Shown: piece by piece, positions 49,849 through 57,892 of the stretch
Numbering within the stretch: position 1 is the first letter of the stretch
How the letters are laid out: every line of letters begins with the position of its first letter
Origin: Planosporangium thailandense
Lineage (GTDB): Bacteria > Actinomycetota > Actinomycetes > Mycobacteriales > Micromonosporaceae
NCBI RefSeq assembly: GCF_011947195.1
Contig: NZ_JAATVY010000026.1
Coordinates: forward strand, 1-64,000
Length of the DNA: 64,000 nucleotides
Direction of reading: 5' to 3'
Notes under the pieces: model-generated
Databases searched by the model: none
Told to the model about the DNA's origin: nothing
The model's input: the letters and a program-made list of their open reading frames with translations, nothing else
Made by a program: the position numbers and the translations under genes

Positions 49849-50040
49849 ATGGGGGAGTCGAGGCGGCCGACCGAGGTGGCGTGGGTGTTCCGGCCAGGCC
49901 CGTCGCAGCAGAACGCGCGGGCGCTGTCCGGCAAGGCGATCTACGGGGTAGGCCCGCTCGGCGAAGACGGTCGGGTCGAGGTTGTCTTGCAGGACGGCAC
50001 CCGCGTCCGTGCCGCGCCCGCGGAGGTCGTCGCGGAGTAG
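49849..50040 (+). CDS. Small hypothetical protein (63 aa)
   Basis: No family recognised. A soluble 63-residue protein with a short basic start (MGESRRPTEVAWVF) and an alternating hydrophobic/polar second half (KAIYGVGPLGEDGRVEVVLQDGTRVRAAPAEVV), suggesting two or three beta strands. ATG 49849 has GGAGGT 5 nt upstream, a strong site, and the hairpin at 50048-50081 follows directly, so the small gene is probably real. It is divergent from ppa with about 290 bp between the starts. Confidence 0.75.
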   Translation: MGESRRPTEVAWVFRPGPSQQNARALSGKAIYGVGPLGEDGRVEVVLQDGTRVRAAPAEVVAE

Positions 50041-50047
50041 GCACGCT

Positions 50048-50081
50048 GGCCACAGGGCGCTACGGTCGGCGCCCTGTGGCC
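50048..50081 (+). terminator. Perfect 13-bp hairpin terminator
   Basis: Arms 50048-50060 and 50069-50081 (GGCCACAGGGCGC/GCGCCCTGTGGCC) are perfect around an 8-nt loop and are followed by gttctc, 8 bp after the stop of the small gene. Confidence 0.85.
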
Positions 50082-50380
50082 GTTCTCATCGGCGTACGCG
50101 TTTCGCGTACCCGGGCGACCGTTCCATTACCGTGACGTGGCTGCCGACGGCCTCGCCACTGTGGACCGGATCGCGGCGGGTGGCGTGAAGCCCACGGCCG
50201 ACGGCCCGGCCCCGGCCGACGGCCCGGCCCGCTCTGCCGGTGGAGATCAGGAAGGCGCGGTTCGCCTGCTGAGTTGGCCGTTGGATGTGGACCTCCGCCC
50301 GTTCGCCTGATTGATCCGCTCCGTTGTCCTGGTCATGATCGCCAAACCCCGGCGTACGCCGGTGACCAGGGAGGAGCGTC
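50082..50380 (+). promoter_or_regulatory. Regulatory region of the FAAL lipid operon
   Basis: About 300 bp without a gene. It contains a short palindrome GTACGCG-TTT-CGCGTAC at 50094-50110, a two-unit 18-bp tandem repeat at 50196-50230 (GGCCGACGGCCCGGCCCC), and a possible promoter: -35 TTGATC at 50311-50316, 17-bp spacer, -10 CATGAT at 50334-50339. That would give a leader of about 35 nt before ATG 50381. The promoter match is moderate. Confidence 0.5.
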
Positions 50381-51970
50381 ATGCGGGACCCGTGGTGGGT
50401 GGCCGACGTGGTGTCGTCGTACGGCGACCCGGCGGCCCAGCACACCGATCGGCCCGCCCACACCTACCTGCGCGGCAACGGTACGGCCGTGACGCTGAGC
50501 CGGGCGCAACTGCACAAGCTGGTCAGCCACCGCGCCGGGGCGTTCGCCGCGCGGGGTGTCACCGCCGGTGACCGGGTGGCGCTGATCGCCGGCGAGCCCG
50601 AGGCGTTCATGCCGACGTTCCTGGCGCTGCTCTGGCTCGGTGCGGTGCCCGTGCCGCTGCCGCCGCCACCCGCGCTGGGGCGCCGCGACGCGTGGCGCTG
50701 TGGCATCGACGAGTCGCTCGGGCTGGTACGGCCCCGGCTCGTCTGCGGCCCGGCCGGGACGCTCGACCTGCTGGAGGCGGGGACAACGGCCGTCGCCGTC
50801 GAGGATCTCGCCGAAGCCGAAGCGGATGTCGACGCCTACCCGGCCCCGGTGCCGCTGCCGCCCGACGCGCCCGCGTACGCGCAGTTCACCAGCGGCAGCA
50901 CGGGCCGGCCGCGGGCCGTCCTCGCCACCCGCCGGTCGCTGGCCGCCAACTGCGCGGCCATCACCGCCGGCATCGCGCTGGACGGCGACCGCGACGTGGG
51001 CGTGTGCTGGCTGCCACTGCACCACGACATGGGCCTGGTCGGGTTCGGCTGCGCCGCGATGACGGCCGGGGTACCCGTGGTCTTCCTGCCGACCGCGACG
51101 TTCCTGCGCGACCCCGGCGTCTGGATGCGCACCGTGTCGGCGTACCGCGGCACGGTGACGTTCGGGCCGACCTTCGCGTACGGGCTGGCCGCCCGGCGGG
51201 CGCGGCCCGACGACGTCGGCTCGATGGACCTGTCGTGCGTCCGCGTCCTCGGCTGCGGAGCGGAACCGATCAACGCCGCGACCCTCGAGCGGTTCCTCGC
51301 CGCGTACGCCCCGGCCGGGCTCGACGCGGCCGCGCTGACCCCCTGTTACGGCCTGGCCGAGGCGACCCTGGCGGTGAGCTTCGCCCGCGGCCTGCGTACC
51401 GCCGAGGACGGGACGGTCGACTGCGGCCGACCTGTGCCCGGGCACGAGGTGGCCGTTGTCGACGCCTCCGGCGCTCCGGCGGCACCCGGCGCGGTCGGGG
51501 AGGTCTGGGTACGGGGCCCGTCGGTCGCGGGCGGGTATTTCGGCGAGTCGGCGCCTGAGACGTTCGGCCCGGACGGCTGGCTGCGCACCGGCGACCTCGG
51601 CTACCTCGACGGTGGCAGCCTCTACCTCACCGGTCGCGCCAAGGACCTGCTGGTCGTCCGCGGTGCCAACACCGACCCGCAGCGCGTGGAGTGGGCGGCG
51701 GCCACCGTCCCGGGGGTGCGCGAAGGTGGGGTCGTCGCGTTCACCCGGCCGGGCGCCGACACCGAGGAGGTGGTGGTCGTCGTCGAGTGCGCCCCGAACG
51801 CGCCCGAAGGCATCCCCGACGCGGTACGCGCCGCGGTGGCGGAACCGCTCGGCCTCTCCGTGACCGACGTCGTACGCGTGCGGCCCGGCACCGTGCCGAA
51901 GACGACCTCGGGCAAGCCGCGCCGGCAGGAGACTCGCCGGCGCTACCTCGCCGGGGAGCTGGTGCGCTGA
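50381..51970 (+). CDS. Fatty acyl-AMP ligase (FAAL-like)
   Basis: 529-residue acyl-adenylate enzyme. The phosphate loop is TSGSTGRPRA (170-179), the A5-type motif PCYGLAEATL (321-330), then TGD (403-405) and GRAKDLLVVRG (418-428). The GCGAEPI segment and the form of the GRAKDLL region resemble FAALs, which load fatty acids onto carrier proteins rather than CoA. The catalytic Lys of the C-terminal lobe lies in TSGKPRRQETR. ATG 50381 has GGGAGGAG about 4 nt upstream. Its stop overlaps the ATG of the next gene (TGATG). Predicted role: activate a free fatty acid and transfer it to the ACP two genes downstream. FAAL against CoA-ligase is inferred from motifs and context. Confidence 0.9.
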   Translation: MRDPWWVADVVSSYGDPAAQHTDRPAHTYLRGNGTAVTLSRAQLHKLVSHRAGAFAARGVTAGDRVALIAGEPEAFMPTFLALLWLGAVPVPLPPPPALGRRDAWRCGIDESLGLVRPRLVCGPAGTLDLLEAGTTAVAVEDLAEAEADVDAYPAPVPLPPDAPAYAQFTSGSTGRPRAVLATRRSLAANCAAITAGIALDGDRDVGVCWLPLHHDMGLVGFGCAAMTAGVPVVFLPTATFLRDPGVWMRTVSAYRGTVTFGPTFAYGLAARRARPDDVGSMDLSCVRVLGCGAEPINAATLERFLAAYAPAGLDAAALTPCYGLAEATLAVSFARGLRTAEDGTVDCGRPVPGHEVAVVDASGAPAAPGAVGEVWVRGPSVAGGYFGESAPETFGPDGWLRTGDLGYLDGGSLYLTGRAKDLLVVRGANTDPQRVEWAAATVPGVREGGVVAFTRPGADTEEVVVVVECAPNAPEGIPDAVRAAVAEPLGLSVTDVVRVRPGTVPKTTSGKPRRQETRRRYLAGELVR

Positions 51971-52824
51971 TGTCGGACAAGGCCGAGGTCGCCGTCAGCT
52001 ACGACGTCGACAACGAGTTCTTCCGGCTGTGGCTGGACCGGCGGATGAACTACACGTGCGCCGTGTTCGACGACACCGACGACCTGGACGCCGCGCAGGT
52101 GGCCAAGCTGGATGTGCTCTACCGGTACGGCCACGTCCGCCCGGATTCGCGGGTACTCGACATCGGCTGCGGCTGGGGCGCGAACCTGGAGTACCTGGCC
52201 GTCGACCGCGGCGTACGCGAGGCGCACGGCATCACGCTGTCGGAGGCGCAGCACGCCGAGATCGTGCGCCGCAACCTGCCCGGTGTGACCGCGTCCTGTG
52301 TGGACTACCGCGACTACGTTCCGCCGGTGCGCTTCGACACCATCATGTCCATCTGCATGATCGAGCACGTCTGCACCCCGCAGCAGGCGCGCGCAGGTGA
52401 AGCCGTCGCCCGGTACCGCGACTACTTCCGGCGGGCCTGGGAGTGGAGCCGGCCGGGCGCCCACTTCGCGCTCCAGTGCATTCTGCGCAACCGGGCGCCC
52501 CGGCTGGCCGCCGACATCCGCGAGATCGGCTGGGTCACGTACCAGATCTTCCCCGGCGGCATCACGCCCCGGATGGAGGACATCGTGCAGGCGGTCAACC
52601 CGTACTGGGAGATCGTCGAGGTGCGCACCCGGCGCGAGGACTACCGGCGGACCTGCGAGCACTGGCGCAGCCGGCTGCGCGGGCACGCCGACGAGATCCG
52701 GCGTCGCTGGGGCGATCACCTGTTGGCTGACTACGACCGGTACCTGACCGCCTGCATCCGGGCGTTCGAGATGCACTACCAGTCGCTGGCGCAGTGGTCG
52801 CTGCGCCGCATCGATGAGATCTAG
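51970..52824 (+). CDS. Cyclopropane-fatty-acid-synthase family methyltransferase
   Basis: 284 residues. The SAM-binding motif is VLDIGCGWGANLE (62-74), preceded by the family start YDVDNEFFRLWLDRRMNYTC, which resembles mycolic-acid and cyclopropane synthases. These enzymes add a methylene or methyl to a double bond of an acyl chain, in mycobacteria on acyl-ACP substrates. Here the next genes are an ACP and a desaturase, so a desaturated acyl-ACP is the likely substrate, giving a cyclopropane or mid-chain methyl group. Which product forms cannot be read from sequence. It overlaps the ligase gene by one base. Confidence 0.9.
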   Translation: MSDKAEVAVSYDVDNEFFRLWLDRRMNYTCAVFDDTDDLDAAQVAKLDVLYRYGHVRPDSRVLDIGCGWGANLEYLAVDRGVREAHGITLSEAQHAEIVRRNLPGVTASCVDYRDYVPPVRFDTIMSICMIEHVCTPQQARAGEAVARYRDYFRRAWEWSRPGAHFALQCILRNRAPRLAADIREIGWVTYQIFPGGITPRMEDIVQAVNPYWEIVEVRTRREDYRRTCEHWRSRLRGHADEIRRRWGDHLLADYDRYLTACIRAFEMHYQSLAQWSLRRIDEI

Positions 52825-52831
52825 GAGTGCC

Positions 52832-53083
52832 GTGTCCACCGAAGAACTGCTCGCGCTGATCAGGACGGGAATCGCCGACGTGACCGGGCGGCCCGCTCCG
52901 GCGCTGGACATCGACACCGGGATCGAGGCGCTCGGGCTGGACTCGTTGCAGACCCTGGAGCTGGTCTCGTGGGCCGAGGAGCGGCTGGCGATCCGGGTGC
53001 CCGACGAGGAGCTGGCGACGGTACGCAGCATCGGCGACCTCACCGGAGCGCTGTCCGCCCGGCTGCCCGGGGAGCCCCGGTGA
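52832..53083 (+). CDS. Acyl carrier protein
   Basis: 83-residue free ACP with the phosphopantetheine attachment motif GLDSLQTLEL (Ser in LDSL, about residue 36). GTG 52832 has AGGAG 5 nt upstream; an in-frame ATG at 52814 overlaps the methyltransferase end and is less likely. The stop codon overlaps the desaturase GTG by 4 bp (GTGA). It most likely carries the acyl chain made by the adenylating enzyme through desaturation and methylation. A phosphopantetheinyl transferase gene at 26444 could activate it. Confidence 0.93.
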   Translation: MSTEELLALIRTGIADVTGRPAPALDIDTGIEALGLDSLQTLELVSWAEERLAIRVPDEELATVRSIGDLTGALSARLPGEPR

Positions 53084-53919
53084 CCAGCCGGGCACTGCGG
53101 GAGGCGTTCCACCGCGAGTACCTGACGTTCTTCGAACGGGCCGAGCGAACCCGCCGCTGGAACGTCTTCACCGACGTCGACTGGGATCAGCTGGCCGGGC
53201 ACCAGCCCGATCCCCGGCTGACGCTGTGTGCGGAGACGTTCTGCGGCGTGGAGATGTACCTGCCCGACTACCTCCGCGCCCACCTCGAGCTGATGCGCGG
53301 CGACTACGGCCGGGCCTGGTTCGCGGCCAACTGGGGCTACGAGGAGGCCAAGCACTCGCTCGTGCTGCGCGAGTACCTGCGGCGCAGTGGCGCGCGCGGC
53401 GACGACGAGCTGCACGACTACACCGAGGCGGTGTTGGCGCGCACCTGGCAGGCCCCGTACGACGACGGCCGCCGCATGACCATCTACGGCGCGCTGCAGG
53501 AGATGACGACGTTTGTCATCTACCGCAAGCAGCGCGGTTGGGCCGGGCAGCTCGGCGACCCGGTGCTGCCGGAGATCTACCGGCTGATCGGCCGGGACGA
53601 GATGGCGCACTCCAGGTTCTATCTGAAGATGATCGAGCTGCACCTAGCGGAGGACCGCGACGGCACCCTCGCCGACCTCGCCTTCGTACTGCGTACCTTC
53701 CGGATGCCGGCGGAGGACCTGCTGCCCGACTACGACAGCCGCATCGAGGTGATGCGCGCGGCCGGCGTCGACCGCGGCGTGTTCCTGGCCGAGGTCGTGC
53801 TGCCGCTGCTCAAGGAGCTGGGGTTGACCCGCCACGATCTGCCGCGGGTACCGGCCGAGGCGGTCACCGAGATCCCCGGCCCGCCCGGGCTGCTGACACA
53901 GGCCGGCGCGAAGCGATGA
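53080..53919 (+). CDS. Di-iron acyl-ACP desaturase
   Basis: 279 residues of the ferritin-like acyl-ACP desaturase family (DesA type). The iron ligands are complete: Glu58, Glu89 with His92 (EEAKH), Glu141, and Glu174 with His177 (DEMAH), in the order of the plant stearoyl-ACP desaturase. It should introduce a cis double bond into an ACP-bound acyl chain using O2 and reduced ferredoxin. GTG 53080 overlaps the ACP stop and the gene ends within the ATG of the KS fusion (ATGA), so the operon is fully coupled. No ferredoxin gene is nearby. Confidence 0.92.
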   Translation: MTSRALREAFHREYLTFFERAERTRRWNVFTDVDWDQLAGHQPDPRLTLCAETFCGVEMYLPDYLRAHLELMRGDYGRAWFAANWGYEEAKHSLVLREYLRRSGARGDDELHDYTEAVLARTWQAPYDDGRRMTIYGALQEMTTFVIYRKQRGWAGQLGDPVLPEIYRLIGRDEMAHSRFYLKMIELHLAEDRDGTLADLAFVLRTFRMPAEDLLPDYDSRIEVMRAAGVDRGVFLAEVVLPLLKELGLTRHDLPRVPAEAVTEIPGPPGLLTQAGAKR

Positions 53920-56840
53920 GCGAGCGCAGCGAACCCATCGCCGTCGTCGGCATGGCCTGCCGGTTCCCCGGCGGCGAGGACCTCGACGGGTACTGGGACC
54001 TCATCCGCACCGGGCGGGTGGCGACGGCACCCGTGTCGCCGGACCGATGGCGGCACGGCTGGCTGCACGATGCGGATGACCTGCGCGCCGCCGACTTCGC
54101 GTACACCGACGTCGTCGCCCACCTGGCGGACGTCGACAGCTTCGCGGCGCAGCGGTACGCGCTCGCACCCCGCCGGATCGAGGTCACCGACCCGCAGCAC
54201 CGCCTGCTGGTCACGCTGACCGACGACGCGCTGCGCGACGCCGGCCTCGGCGCGATCCCGCGAGACCGTACCGGCGTCTACGTCGGCGCGTCCGTCAGCG
54301 AGTACAAGGATCTGCTGACCAGCCGGATCCGGGCCCGGCAGATGGCCGCCGGCGAGTTCGGCGCGCCGCTCGACGCCGACGCGGCCCGGGCGGCGGTCGA
54401 TGGCGTGGCGCCGCCGCGCGCGTACACGATCCCCGGCACCCTGCTCAACATGGCGGCCGCGACCGTCAGCGCGGTGTTCGACTTCAGCGGCCCGAGCTTC
54501 GTCGTCGACGCCGCGTGCGCGTCCGCGCTCGTGGCGCTGCACGAGGCGGTGGTGCACCTGCGCGCCGGCGAGTGCGACCTCGCGGTCGCCGGCGGCGTCT
54601 ACCTCAACCTCGTACCGGACAACCTCATCGGGTTCTCGCGCATCGGTGCGGTGTCGCGGGCCGGCGTGTGCCGGCCGTTCGACCGGCGGGCCGACGGGTT
54701 CGTGCTCGGCGAGGGCGCCGGCGTGGTCGTCCTCAAGCGCCTCGCCGACGCTCTCCGCGACGGCGACCGGCCGTACGCGGTGATCCGAGGTACCGGCTGC
54801 GCCAACGACGGACGGGCCGAGGGCCCGATGACGCCCCGACTGGAAGGACAGGTCACATGCCTGCGGCGGGCGTACCGCGACGCCGCCGTCGACCCGGCCG
54901 CGGTCGGCTTCGTCGAGTGCCACGGCACCGCCACCCCGGCCGGTGACGCGGTCGAACTCGCGGCCCTGCGCGAGGTGTTCGGCGCGGGCGGCGCGACCGA
55001 GGTCTCCTCGGTGAAGGCCAACATCGGCCACACCATGTCGGCCGCCGGCATCGCGGGCCTGATCAAGGCCGTGCTGGTGCTGCGGCACGCGACCGTGCCG
55101 CCGCAGGTGGGCTGCGACGAGCCGGACCCGATGCTGGGGTCGCTGCGGGTGTCGGACACCGCCCGGCCGTGGGCGCGGAACCCCGGTGCGCCCCGGCGGG
55201 CCGGGGTCAGCTCGTTCGGCTTCGGCGGCACCAACGTCCACGTGGTGCTGGAGGAGGCGCCCGGCGCCCCGCACCCGGTCACGTCGTCCCCGCGGGATGG
55301 CCAGGCCACCCGGTATTGGGCGGTCCGCCGGGGGAGCGCGCCGGCGAGCCCCGACGTCCGGGGTGAGCCGGCGGGCTCGTCGGTGCCGGCGCCCACCGCC
55401 GACGCGCTGATGGCGGCGATCGCGAGCGCCGGGGCGTACCCCGAGGACTCGCTGCGGCCCGACCAGGCCCTGGTCGACGACCTCGGCTTCGACTCGCTGA
55501 TGCTGCTCGAACTCGAGGAGCACCTGGCGAAGGCGTACCCGGGTCTCGACCGGCTGCCGGACGAACTGCTGCAGCGCACCACGACCATCGCGGAGGTCGC
55601 CGCCTGGCTGGACCGGCACGCCGGCCCGCCGGTGGCGCACACCGAGCCGCTGGTCGATGACCGGTTGCCCGAGTTGGCGGCGCTCGGCGACCGGCTGTCG
55701 CTCGCCGAGCGGCTGGGCGTGCCCAACCCGTACTTCGTCGCCCATGACGGTGCGTTGGGCGCGACGACCGTCGTCGACGGCGCGGAGCTGATCGACTTCT
55801 CCGGCTACGACTATCTGGGCCTGGCCACCGACCCCGCCGTGGTGGCCGCCGCCGCCGAAGCCGTCGCGCGCTACGGGACCTCGGTGTCGGCCAGCCGCGT
55901 CGCCTCGGGCGAGCGTCCCCTGCACCGCGACCTGGAGGCGGAGATCGCGGACCTGCTCGGCGCCGAGGCCGCGCTGACGATGGTCAGCGGCCACGCCACG
56001 AACGTCGGCGTGCTGGGGCATCTGCTGCGCCCGGGTGATCTCGCCCTGCACGACGCGCTCGCCCACGACAGCATCCTGCAGGGGATCCGGCTGTCGGGGG
56101 CGTCGCGCCGACCGTTCCCGCACAACGACCTGGCCGCGCTCGACCGGCTGTTGACCGACCTTGCGCCGCGCCATCGGCGGGTCGTCGTCGCCGTCGAGGG
56201 CGTGTACAGCATGGACGGCGACCTCGCCGACCTGCCCGCCCTGGTGGAGCTGCGCCGCCGCCACGGCTTCCTGCTCTATGTCGACGAGGCGCACAGCGTC
56301 GGCGTGCTCGGCGCGACCGGTCGGGGCGCCGGCGAGCACTGGGACGTCGCGGCGTCCGATGTGGACATCTGGATGGGTACGCTGTCGAAGGCCCTCGCCA
56401 GCTGCGGCGGGTACGTCGCGGGCGAGGCCCGGCTCATCGAGTACCTGCGGTACACCACCCCCGGTTTCGTCTACAGCGTCGGCCTTCCGCCGGCGGCAGG
56501 CGCGGCGGCCCTGGCCGCGCTCCGCCGCCTGCGGGCCGAGCCCGGGCGGGTGGCCCGGCTGACCGCCAACACCGCGCTCTTCCGGCGCCTCGCGGCCGAG
56601 GCCGGGCTGGCCGTCGGGTCCGGCACGGCCCCGGTCGTGCCGGTCCTCACGGGCGGTTCGTCCGGCGCGCTGCTGCTGGCCGACCGGATGCGCCGGCGCG
56701 GGGTCAACGTGCAGCCGATCCTGTACCCGGCCGTCGAGGACTCCGCGGCGCGGCTGCGCTTCTTCATCAACGCCAGCCACACCCCGCAACAGCTCGAGGA
56801 CACGGTCGCGGCGCTGGCCGCCGAGGTCGCGAGCCTGTGA
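53916..56840 (+). CDS. Ketosynthase-ACP-alpha-oxoamine synthase fusion
   Basis: 974 residues in three parts. A PKS-type ketosynthase (about 5-445) has the catalytic Cys201 in DAACASAL, His336 in ECHGTAT and His372 in NIGH. An ACP (about 495-570) has LGFDSLML with Ser527. A PLP-dependent alpha-oxoamine synthase (about 585-970) has DEAHSVGVLG (790-799) and the Schiff-base Lys825 in GTLSKAL, like 8-amino-7-oxononanoate and 5-aminolevulinate synthases and serine palmitoyltransferase. There is no acyltransferase domain, so any malonyl unit must come in trans. Alpha-oxoamine synthases join an acyl thioester to an amino acid with loss of CO2. Here the acyl chain would come from the attached ACP. The ATG overlaps the desaturase stop. 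The amino acid is unknown. Confidence 0.93.
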   Translation: MSERSEPIAVVGMACRFPGGEDLDGYWDLIRTGRVATAPVSPDRWRHGWLHDADDLRAADFAYTDVVAHLADVDSFAAQRYALAPRRIEVTDPQHRLLVTLTDDALRDAGLGAIPRDRTGVYVGASVSEYKDLLTSRIRARQMAAGEFGAPLDADAARAAVDGVAPPRAYTIPGTLLNMAAATVSAVFDFSGPSFVVDAACASALVALHEAVVHLRAGECDLAVAGGVYLNLVPDNLIGFSRIGAVSRAGVCRPFDRRADGFVLGEGAGVVVLKRLADALRDGDRPYAVIRGTGCANDGRAEGPMTPRLEGQVTCLRRAYRDAAVDPAAVGFVECHGTATPAGDAVELAALREVFGAGGATEVSSVKANIGHTMSAAGIAGLIKAVLVLRHATVPPQVGCDEPDPMLGSLRVSDTARPWARNPGAPRRAGVSSFGFGGTNVHVVLEEAPGAPHPVTSSPRDGQATRYWAVRRGSAPASPDVRGEPAGSSVPAPTADALMAAIASAGAYPEDSLRPDQALVDDLGFDSLMLLELEEHLAKAYPGLDRLPDELLQRTTTIAEVAAWLDRHAGPPVAHTEPLVDDRLPELAALGDRLSLAERLGVPNPYFVAHDGALGATTVVDGAELIDFSGYDYLGLATDPAVVAAAAEAVARYGTSVSASRVASGERPLHRDLEAEIADLLGAEAALTMVSGHATNVGVLGHLLRPGDLALHDALAHDSILQGIRLSGASRRPFPHNDLAALDRLLTDLAPRHRRVVVAVEGVYSMDGDLADLPALVELRRRHGFLLYVDEAHSVGVLGATGRGAGEHWDVAASDVDIWMGTLSKALASCGGYVAGEARLIEYLRYTTPGFVYSVGLPPAAGAAALAALRRLRAEPGRVARLTANTALFRRLAAEAGLAVGSGTAPVVPVLTGGSSGALLLADRMRRRGVNVQPILYPAVEDSAARLRFFINASHTPQQLEDTVAALAAEVASL

Positions 56841-56908
56841 CGTTGAACGGCGTGGATTGAACGGTGTCATCGCCGGGTATCCAGTGACTGTCGCAACGGG
56901 ACGGCCGG

Positions 56909-57892
56909 ATGAGGGCGGTGATGTCGATGAGCGCGGTCGCGGCCGAAGCCGTTGCTGCCGGCGCCGTCACGGTGGGTACCGTCGCGGTGGTCGCGCACCG
57001 CGGGAAGAAGCTCGGTGGCGGGCTCGACGAGCTGCGCACGCTGGTCAGCGGGTACGGCGTCGACCGGATCGTCTGGTACGAGGTCGCCAAGAGCGCGAAG
57101 GCGCCCAAGAAGGCGCGCAAGGCGCTCAAGCAGGGCGCGGAGCTGGTCTTCGTGTGGGGCGGCGACGGGATGGTCCAGCGCTGCGCCGACGCGCTGGCCG
57201 GTTCGGGCGCCACGCTGGCCATCGTGCCCGCCGGCACGGCCAACATGCTCGCGTCCAACCTCGGTATCCCGCGTGACCTGGCCGCTGCCGTGCGGATCGG
57301 GTTCGAGGGCCGGCGCCGCGCCCTCGACCTGGGAAAGGTCAACGGCGAGCACTTCGCGGTTATGGCCGGCGCCGGTTTCGACGGCGCGCTCATCCGCGAC
57401 GCCGACCGGTCGCTCAAGGACAGGGCCGGCCGGCTGGCGTACGTGTGGACCGCGCTCAGGCACGTGCGCGACGATCCGGTACGGGCCAGGATCCGCGTCG
57501 ACGGGACAACGTGGTTCGACGGCAAGGCGAGCTGCGTCCTGTTGGGCAACGTGGGCACCATCACCGGTGGCATCCGGGCGTTCGACGACGCGCGCCTCGA
57601 CGACGGTTGGCTCGAGGTAGGGGTCGCCACGGCACGGGGCGCGGTGCAGTGGGCCCGTACCCTCGGGCGGATGGTCGCCGGCCGGACCGCGCGGTCACCG
57701 CTGGTGCGCATCACCCGCGCGAAGGCGGTCGACGTGAAGCTGCGTAAACCGATGACGTACGAGCTGGACGGCGGGGCGCGCGGGCCGACCACGCGGCTGA
57801 AGGTACGGATCAGACCTGCCGCGATCACCGTGTGCGTGCCCGCGGACCGGTACGGGCATGGTTCCGCCGCCGTGCCTTCCACCCGATCCTGA
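56909..57892 (+). CDS. Diacylglycerol/sphingosine kinase-family lipid kinase
   Basis: 327 residues of the DAGK_cat family. The nucleotide-binding loop is GGDGM (84-88) in place of GGDGT, followed by PAGTANMLASNLGIP (107-121), and a C-terminal beta domain with YELDGG. A weak hydrophobic N terminus (about 8-30) may help membrane contact. The family phosphorylates lipid hydroxyl groups (diacylglycerol, sphingosine, ceramide). It starts 68 bp after the KS-AOS gene on the same strand, so an amino-alcohol lipid product is a natural substrate, but the same family occurs outside such clusters. ATG 56909 is the first of three close Met codons. The gap before it holds a TTGAACGGYGT direct repeat (56843-56867). 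Confidence 0.88.
   Translation: MRAVMSMSAVAAEAVAAGAVTVGTVAVVAHRGKKLGGGLDELRTLVSGYGVDRIVWYEVAKSAKAPKKARKALKQGAELVFVWGGDGMVQRCADALAGSGATLAIVPAGTANMLASNLGIPRDLAAAVRIGFEGRRRALDLGKVNGEHFAVMAGAGFDGALIRDADRSLKDRAGRLAYVWTALRHVRDDPVRARIRVDGTTWFDGKASCVLLGNVGTITGGIRAFDDARLDDGWLEVGVATARGAVQWARTLGRMVAGRTARSPLVRITRAKAVDVKLRKPMTYELDGGARGPTTRLKVRIRPAAITVCVPADRYGHGSAAVPSTRS

Follow-up and report, generated by a model that had tools for sequence, protein, structure and literature searches.

The window analysed here, a stretch of 64,000 nucleotides at the start of contig NZ_JAATVY010000026.1 of Planosporangium thailandense (assembly GCF_011947195.1), carries a five-gene operon for a fatty acyl-AMP ligase (FAAL), a methyltransferase of the CMAS family, an acyl carrier protein (ACP), a desaturase (DES) and a fusion of ketosynthase (KS), ACP and alpha-oxoamine synthase (AOS). 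We put at roughly 50% the probability that this operon specifies a synthase of the RedL type in split and altered form, supplied by a cassette that edits fatty acids. The gene set, domains, catalytic residues, conservation and AOS clade are established at the level of sequence, and on our analysis a beta-keto chain with glycine-type offloading, giving a 2-alkyl-4-ketopyrroline, appears likelier than a plain sphingoid-like aminoketone, because the domain order and the AOS clade match RedL and a plain aminoketone would leave the KS without a job. The initial annotation of this DNA had proposed such an alpha-aminoketone; for the same reason that part of it is now questionable, while a capacity for carrier-bound editing of an activated fatty acid and AOS offloading onto an amino acid is supported. 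The acyl-editing part gains support from the recurrence of FAAL, ACP and CMAS, often with a desaturase, beside other enzymes.

The operon and its enzymes

All five genes lie on the forward strand (positions are numbered from the first letter of the window; the host genome, G000, is 7.0 Mb in 114 contigs). The FAAL (529 aa, 50381..51970; Pfam AMP-binding 3.5e-59) is followed by the CMAS-type S-adenosylmethionine-dependent methyltransferase (284 aa, 51970..52824; Pfam CMAS 1.7e-56), a stand-alone ACP (ACP1, 52832..53083; Pfam PP-binding 2.3e-14 for the frame from 52814), the DES, a soluble diiron acyl-ACP desaturase (53080..53919; Pfam FA_desaturase_2 4e-18), and the 974-aa fusion (53916..56840; Pfam, NCBIfam and alignment). 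Read from the sequence, FAAL and CMAS overlap at TGATG, ACP1 begins with a GTG 7 nt after the CMAS stop (GTG 52832 was picked by its spacing from an upstream AGGAG), ACP1 overlaps DES at GTGA and DES overlaps the fusion at ATGA; a lipid kinase gene follows after 68 bp. The gene identities proposed initially are confirmed by Pfam, and the junctions by this reading of the open reading frames (ORFs).

Within the fusion the KS occupies residues 6-400 (53931..55115; ketoacyl-synt 4.9e-69, Ketoacyl-synt_C 1.8e-36), the second ACP (ACP2) residues 497-565 (55404..55610; Pfam PP-binding 3.2e-06) and the Pfam part of the AOS residues 624-967 (55785..56816; Aminotran_1_2 1.6e-48). The catalytic residues are present as first annotated (the ExxH-type motifs of DES included), and Cys201, His336 and His372 of the KS, Ser527 of ACP2 and the pyridoxal phosphate lysine, Lys825, do not vary across the seven fusions that were aligned. 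Pfam and NCBIfam gave no match in the fusion to an acyltransferase (AT), ketoreductase (KR) or thioesterase, nor one to a KR, dehydratase (DH) or enoylreductase (ER) in either the fusion or the operon; that no AT lies between KS and ACP2 in the fusion is a detail the initial annotation did not mention. The host genome has two AT-family matches, one within a polyketide synthase (PKS) and the other a stand-alone FabD-like gene that adjoins FabH-, ACP- and FabF-like genes (Fab names by reading and tblastn).

The best solved relative of the FAAL is the fatty acyl-adenylate ligase 3pbk (299.9 bits), with FadD23/28/32 and loading domains next, as against 118.7 bits for 8weu, a Fatty-acyl-CoA synthase (some intervening rows are merely named acyl-CoA synthase), and its best NCBIfam model is a FAAL subfamily, under cut-off at 404 of 600; by these scores it appears closer to FAALs than to acyl-CoA ligases. 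DES passes its family model (FA_desaturase_2, 65.8 bits vs 22.7), and its nearest solved sequences are acyl-ACP desaturases. Common to the four homologues aligned are E58, EExxH (88-92), E141 and DExxH (173-177), which we take to be the iron ligands. A structure model of DES (pLDDT 75.3) was used for the fold only; of the 50 Foldseek rows it gave, the top 15 are all acyl-ACP desaturases (query TM 0.57-0.65), and R2-like oxidases come after them. CMAS passes its Pfam family model at 192 bits against a cut-off of 27; its structure model, at pLDDT 56.5, was not used.

As judged from sequence, the five genes form one operon that is real and conserved but rare. A whole-fusion query of 61 relatives was crowded by KSs and, among the matches listed, none but the window spanned KS and AOS. 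An ACP-AOS query used in its place matched 21 of 394 genomes of a class sample (at E 1e-75) and 32 of 354 genomes of a family sample (at E 1e-72), G000 being counted in both; the same-genus genomes G001-G003 gave no ACP-AOS match (G003 is 86% complete). Close relatives of the fusion beyond the host's were found in three of the 354 family genomes, G710, G684 and G746, at 72-80% over the match, and another AT-less fusion, of a different clade, in G509 (L118). The neighbourhood search proposed initially recovered all five genes in G710 (locus L106), in the same order with tight junctions and at 70-88% identity by part, and in G684 (L107) the four that are visible, again in order and tightly joined, on a contig that begins inside CMAS; since order and junctions are kept in this way, the arrangement is not due to chance. 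KS and AOS are equally conserved between the window and G710 (83% each). In the third relative, Phytohabitans maris G746, the fusion with its surroundings, 19 kb in all as fetched, gave no match to FAAL, CMAS, ACP or DES. DES occurs in four of the 354 family genomes (G000, G710, G684 and G542) and in one of the 394 of the class sample, the host's own; the fusion clade of the window likewise occurs in four of the family genomes, and both together in three.

Relationship to RedL and the proposed pathway

In the passages that treat RedL, it turns dodecanoic acid into 4-keto-2-undecylpyrroline (PMC12654105); elongation of the ACP-bound chain by one malonyl unit gives a beta-keto thioester, which undergoes decarboxylative condensation with glycine and then cyclises (PMC11188435). 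AOS sequences were placed in a quick tree (118 rows) and in a careful one (46 rows, E. coli BioF and KBL among them), and KS sequences in a quick tree; AOS matches of 320 aa or less, KS matches of 380 aa or less and some loci of the ACP-AOS search were left out, L128 (Micromonospora sp. MP36) and L129 (Phytohabitans maris) were dropped as duplicates of L107/L108, and L059 and L135, which are one sequence, were kept twice. The genes of L065, L168, L171 and L179 were placed by tblastn. Two prodiginine-like clusters were met, L072 and L073, whose RedL and RedN names we assigned from domain order and neighbours: the RedL-like protein of L073 reads A-ACP-KS-AT-ACP-AOS-SDR (A, adenylation domain; SDR, short-chain dehydrogenase/reductase), that of L072 is alike without the SDR match, and in both a protein with a RedN-like AOS and an adenylation-like protein come before it. 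The roles of these neighbouring genes are our presumption. In the 46-row tree the AOS of the window and both RedL AOSs fall in one 38-row clade (ultrafast bootstrap 100, SH-aLRT 99), outside which lie RedN, BioF and KBL, the last two flagged as long branches. The quick tree puts the AOS of the window in this clade too. The AOS of the window is 53.5 and 49.2% identical to RedL and 38.8 and 37.3% to RedN. At 72 columns that separate RedL from RedN it agrees with RedL at 39, with RedN at 14 and with neither at 19, a count that mixes descent with specificity and is a weak guide to the amino acid used.

The 38-row clade also holds FAAL-ACP-AOS, KS-AT-ACP-AOS and RkpG-like proteins. The AOSs of KS-AT-ACP-AOS proteins are about 53-64% identical to that of the window and their KSs about 47-56% in most, falling to 37-39% in a Nocardia/Rhodococcus/Mycobacterium group. 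An MMPL-family transporter match lies in the fetched locus of 13 of 27 KS-AT-ACP-AOS rows (L053, L058, L064, L109, L112, L116, L130, L131, L133, L142, L150, L169 and L206; Pfam-checked in L058 and L116), of none of eight other KS-ACP-AOS rows, and not in the window, which suggests an exported lipid product for the KS-AT-ACP-AOS proteins concerned. Four KS-AT-ACP-AOS clusters (L113, L115, L116 and L066) also have FabF-like KS, ACP-like and AMP-ligase-like genes (roles by reading) and a distant match to DES of the window (24-26%), and this lineage may pair a diiron desaturase with a PKS-AOS. Among the 118 rows of the quick tree, 38 were sorted by script as FAAL-ACP-AOS without a KS (FAAL match within 1.3 kb upstream) and 25 as lying downstream of long PKSs, about half of them RkpA-like. 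The FAAL-ACP-AOS rows (L132, L134, L136-L138 and others) are mostly from Planctomycetes, with some from cyanobacteria and other groups, and are possible aminolipid makers. Two fusions, of an uncultured proteobacterium (L195:3886-10206) and a Myxococcales metagenome-assembled genome (L140:48-5993, cut at its start), read KS-AT-ACP-KR-DH-AOS, an unusual order with KR and DH after the ACP.

The first alternative to be weighed is that the KS only moves the acyl chain from ACP1 to ACP2, there being no extension, and that the AOS makes a long-chain, sphingoid-like 1-amino-2-ketone, or with serine a 2-amino-3-keto lipid. The malonyl supply of a fusion without an AT is not obvious, the KS-less FAAL-ACP-AOS proteins make up 38 of the 118 rows, and rhodobacterial serine palmitoyltransferases (SPTs) use a dedicated acyl-ACP synthetase and ACP, a similar trio (abstract of PMC9386255). 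However, the KS of the window retains its Cys-His-His triad and is conserved as much as the AOS, and in the AOS and KS quick trees the AT-less KS-ACP-AOS proteins form two separate clades that both retain the KS (the window, L067 and L118 were examined for an AT with Pfam, the remaining AT-less fusions with tblastn). The three SPT models shown also score the AOS of the window far below their equivalog cut-offs (288.7/640, 270.4/500 and 198/670 bits); SPT membership was judged by these family models. We therefore consider this explanation unlikely, though not negligible. A second alternative is that the KS acts iteratively and that fatty acid reductases and a dehydratase of the host reduce the chain over several extensions before the AOS releases a sphingoid-like base. 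The KR and DH domains of the L195 and L140 fusions would fit this, as would the same-clade AOSs downstream of long PKSs, where reduced chains may be normal; against it, KR, DH and ER matches are absent from the fusion and the operon, and a FAAL that loads a ready-made fatty acid makes iterative building needless, so we hold it to be quite improbable.

In the RedL-like pathway that we prefer, the FAAL would adenylate a free fatty acid and load it onto ACP1, DES would introduce a double bond into the ACP1-bound chain and CMAS would methylate that double bond to give a cyclopropane or a methyl or methylene branch. The KS would then accept the edited chain and add one malonyl unit carried on ACP2, which would be reached by malonyl in trans, most simply through FabD; loading in trans is assumed because the fusion has no AT. 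As there is no KR, a beta-ketoacyl-ACP2 would remain, and the AOS would join it, with loss of CO2, to an amino acid, for which RedL suggests glycine. Ring closure of the released 1-amino-2,4-dione would give a 2-(modified alkyl)-4-ketopyrroline, which may be a precursor of an alkylpyrrole. The kinase would have no part. The order of the steps, the single extension, trans loading, the service of FabD, the amino acid, ring closure and the final structure are what we infer.

Several points weigh against this pathway. The AOS of the window does not pair with RedL inside the clade, whose deep forks are poorly resolved, and as the clade holds KS-less FAAL-ACP-AOS and RkpG-type enzymes, membership of it is no proof of a beta-keto substrate or of glycine. 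The KS of the window lies outside the branch of the RedL KSs (two sets, of 28 and 35 rows, with SH-aLRT 99 and 98 in the quick tree, in which the KS of L072 is a flagged long branch), and the likeness to RedL is therefore one of order and AOS, not of whole-protein descent. The AT is absent from the fusion, which leaves trans loading as an assumption, and no RedK-like reductase was found in the operon or recognised among the five neighbours scanned in L106. The Phytohabitans maris fusion has no cassette nearby, so that a cassette-fed substrate cannot be assumed there, and a substitution in CMAS (Gln169, below) makes cyclopropanation unsure.

The acyl-editing cassette and the insertion site

Beyond the window the cassette is found in other settings. 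G542 (L220), which is absent from the ACP-AOS matches in the 354 family genomes, encodes DES (52%), CMAS (55%), an ACP, a short protein resembling CMAS, two FAALs, one P450 and part of a non-ribosomal peptide synthetase (NRPS); the short protein (L220:11109-11822, Pfam CMAS 2.2e-07) adjoins the full CMAS and is perhaps a second subunit. Eight plasmid records hold a near relative of CMAS, and a FAAL match lies near it in all seven that were opened (a Vibrio cfa record was left out). Plasmids of Pseudonocardia alni and Thalassospira marina carry desaturase, ACP, CMAS, P450, hydrolase and FAAL genes; one of Polaromonas carries FAAL, desaturase, ACP, CMAS, desaturase, KS and KS; two of Sphingobium carry ACP, CMAS and FAAL, preceded by a gene annotated as an acyl-homoserine-lactone (AHL) synthase in one and as hypothetical in the other; those of Rhodococcus opacus and Tistrella mobilis are unannotated and their genes were called here. 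Desaturases of these seven records, where present, give no match to DES of the window and were taken for membrane-type enzymes. In three more genomes (L264-L266), ACP-, CMAS-, P450- and FAAL-like genes stand in a row (identified with tblastn for FAAL and CMAS and by reading for the other two), and such an ACP, CMAS, P450 and FAAL cassette recurs in actinobacteria and Thalassospira (L264, L265, L266, L226, L227 and L231), mostly with a desaturase-like gene and often with a PaaI thioesterase or hydrolase; we met no product for it.

Because FAAL-ACP-CMAS sets recur beside such different partners, desaturase and CMAS probably both act on acyl-ACP. It would follow that methylation by CMAS of a nitrogen or ring in the completed product is improbable, an idea that we rate very low given that CMAS keeps company with FAAL and ACP beside an NRPS, P450, KS or annotated AHL synthase. 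Two features of CMAS point the other way, namely that its weaker solved relatives include a CMAS-fold N-methyltransferase (6gkv, 7.8e-10) and that the active-site His of cyclopropane fatty acid (CFA) synthases is replaced by Gln. CMAS does carry Cys30, Glu132 and Tyr225, to which we ascribe the roles that they have in CFA and mycolate enzymes. Gln169, a detail absent from the initial annotation, stands where all five solved CFA/mycolate methyltransferases shown have His, presumably at the bicarbonate site, and is found in the CMAS of the window, L106, L107 and L220 alike. In a survey of 38 CMAS rows (20 loci were fetched for it from a longer match list), Gln169 was carried by all 13 rows that have a strong FAAL match (at least 184 bits) nearby and also by nine of 23 without a FAAL match, one of which is L107 on its cut contig; two rows with His have weak AMP-ligase matches nearby (75.5 and 84.7 bits). 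Gln169 as a mark of FAAL cassettes was rejected on account of those nine rows, and as it occurs in both FAAL-linked and FAAL-free rows it neither proves nor excludes cyclopropanation.

Since a fusion stands without the cassette in G746 and a cassette without an AOS match in G542, the two are separable, and by its gene content the operon joins two such modules, a FAAL-ACP-desaturase-CMAS cassette and the fusion. We suggest, tentatively, that a portable cassette hands its edited chain to whichever enzyme adjoins it (NRPS, KS, P450 or AHL synthase), here the AT-less fusion, and that the outcome might be a new lipid class, 2-(cyclopropyl- or methyl-alkyl)-4-ketopyrrolines or pyrroles, compounds that we did not meet in the literature searched. 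If so, actinobacteria would gain a lipid class, and the case would show how a PKS-AOS offloading unit and an editing cassette can be put together like building blocks. A wide AOS family, for most of which no assigned product was met, would also be opened to direct tests: the Planctomycetes-rich FAAL-ACP-AOS proteins, the MMPL-linked KS-AT-ACP-AOS proteins of Streptomyces and kin, and the enzymes of capsule loci. A CMAS acting on FAAL-loaded acyl-ACP would be a useful tool for branched or cyclopropane chains.

Downstream of the operon lies a YegS/DAGK-like lipid kinase gene (56909..57892, forward strand; Pfam YegS_C and DAGK_cat), which we judge to be outside the pathway. It had been suggested that this kinase phosphorylates the product, a role that we reject on the gene order in the genus and on G710 and G684. 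Orthologues (74-80%) are present in all three same-genus genomes, which lack the operon. In G002 (L208) the order is pyrophosphatase, small conserved ORF, kinase and phosphoribosyltransferase, the small ORF and the kinase being some 0.5 kb apart; in G003 (L209), where the kinase is again beside pyrophosphatase and phosphoribosyltransferase genes, that interval is about 2.1 kb with two called genes, and in G001 (L210), where the kinase is at a contig end, about 4.7 kb with five. No kinase match was found in the operon loci of G710 (L106) or G684 (L107); in G710 the orthologue is at 6.04 Mb, some 0.6 Mb from the operon at 5.42-5.43 Mb. As operon-less congeners share its surroundings and it lies apart from the operon in G710 and G684, the kinase is a resident neighbour. 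The small conserved ORF (49849..50040, forward strand; found with tblastn in L208, L209 and L210, each time upstream of the kinase) marks the upstream edge, and the interval 50040-56909 appears to be a variable site that received the operon by insertion, because the same gap holds nothing in L208, two genes in L209, five in L210 and the operon in the window.

Comparison with known systems

The exact gene combination, which the initial annotation did not recognise, was not described in the literature searched (subscription papers lay largely outside it); its core logic, though, is known from RedL and from AasR-AcpR-SPT. In the latter system, of Rhodobacteria, a dedicated acyl-ACP synthetase and ACP likewise feed an AOS-family enzyme, but the abstract names no KS, desaturase or methyltransferase (PMC9386255), and the AOS of the window scores under the SPT cut-offs. 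The cyanobacterial SPT-like AOS that, in the part of PMC8895605 concerned with it, made no sphingoid base is a warning against naming AOSs as SPTs. The RkpA/RkpG (WcbR/WcbT) capsule lipid genes also pair a PKS with an AOS, and that AOS belongs to the same clade (L054 and L055, 53% identity; the Rkp/Wcb names of these two are our own assignment), but as separate genes beside capsule genes, surroundings that the window lacks; RkpA and WcbR are described as PKSs of polysaccharide loci in the relevant passages of PMC3908369 and PMC4245539. CMAS of the window resembles the CFA/mycolate family in its family model and in Cys30, Glu132 and Tyr225, and differs in having Gln169 for His and its own ACP and FAAL adjoining. 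The desaturase of the jamaicamide starter belongs to a different class from DES. There too the chain is put on an ACP by a FAAL and modified by a desaturase on its way to a PKS, but an alkyne is formed and the set as described includes no CMAS or AOS (from the section of PMC11837247 on it); in that FAAL review, the terms cyclopropa, oxoamine, RedL and prodig are absent.

Table 2 of PMC3870968 gives seven Aminotran_1_2 domains in layouts that include A-CP-PLP2 (Blastopirellula marina), KR-CP-PLP2 and, in Streptomyces griseoviridis, A-CP-KS-AT-PLP2 and CP-CP-PLP2; KS-CP-PLP2 is not among the seven layouts of that table. The KS-AT-ACP-AOS proteins of Streptomyces, Kutzneria, Micromonosporaceae, Mycobacteriaceae and others, for which we met no product, retain the AT, whereas the fusion of the window does not. 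RedL shares with the window the order A/FAAL-ACP-KS-ACP-AOS, the AOS clade and, if our pathway holds, the joining of a fatty acid to an amino acid with loss of CO2. The window differs from it in having FAAL and ACP1 as separate genes, no AT, a KS of another branch, and an added desaturase and CMAS, and no prodiginine genes were recognised beside the operon; the rest of the domain order agrees. What is known is the RedL logic; the novelty lies in a split version of it that lacks an AT and is coupled to a cassette for acyl editing.

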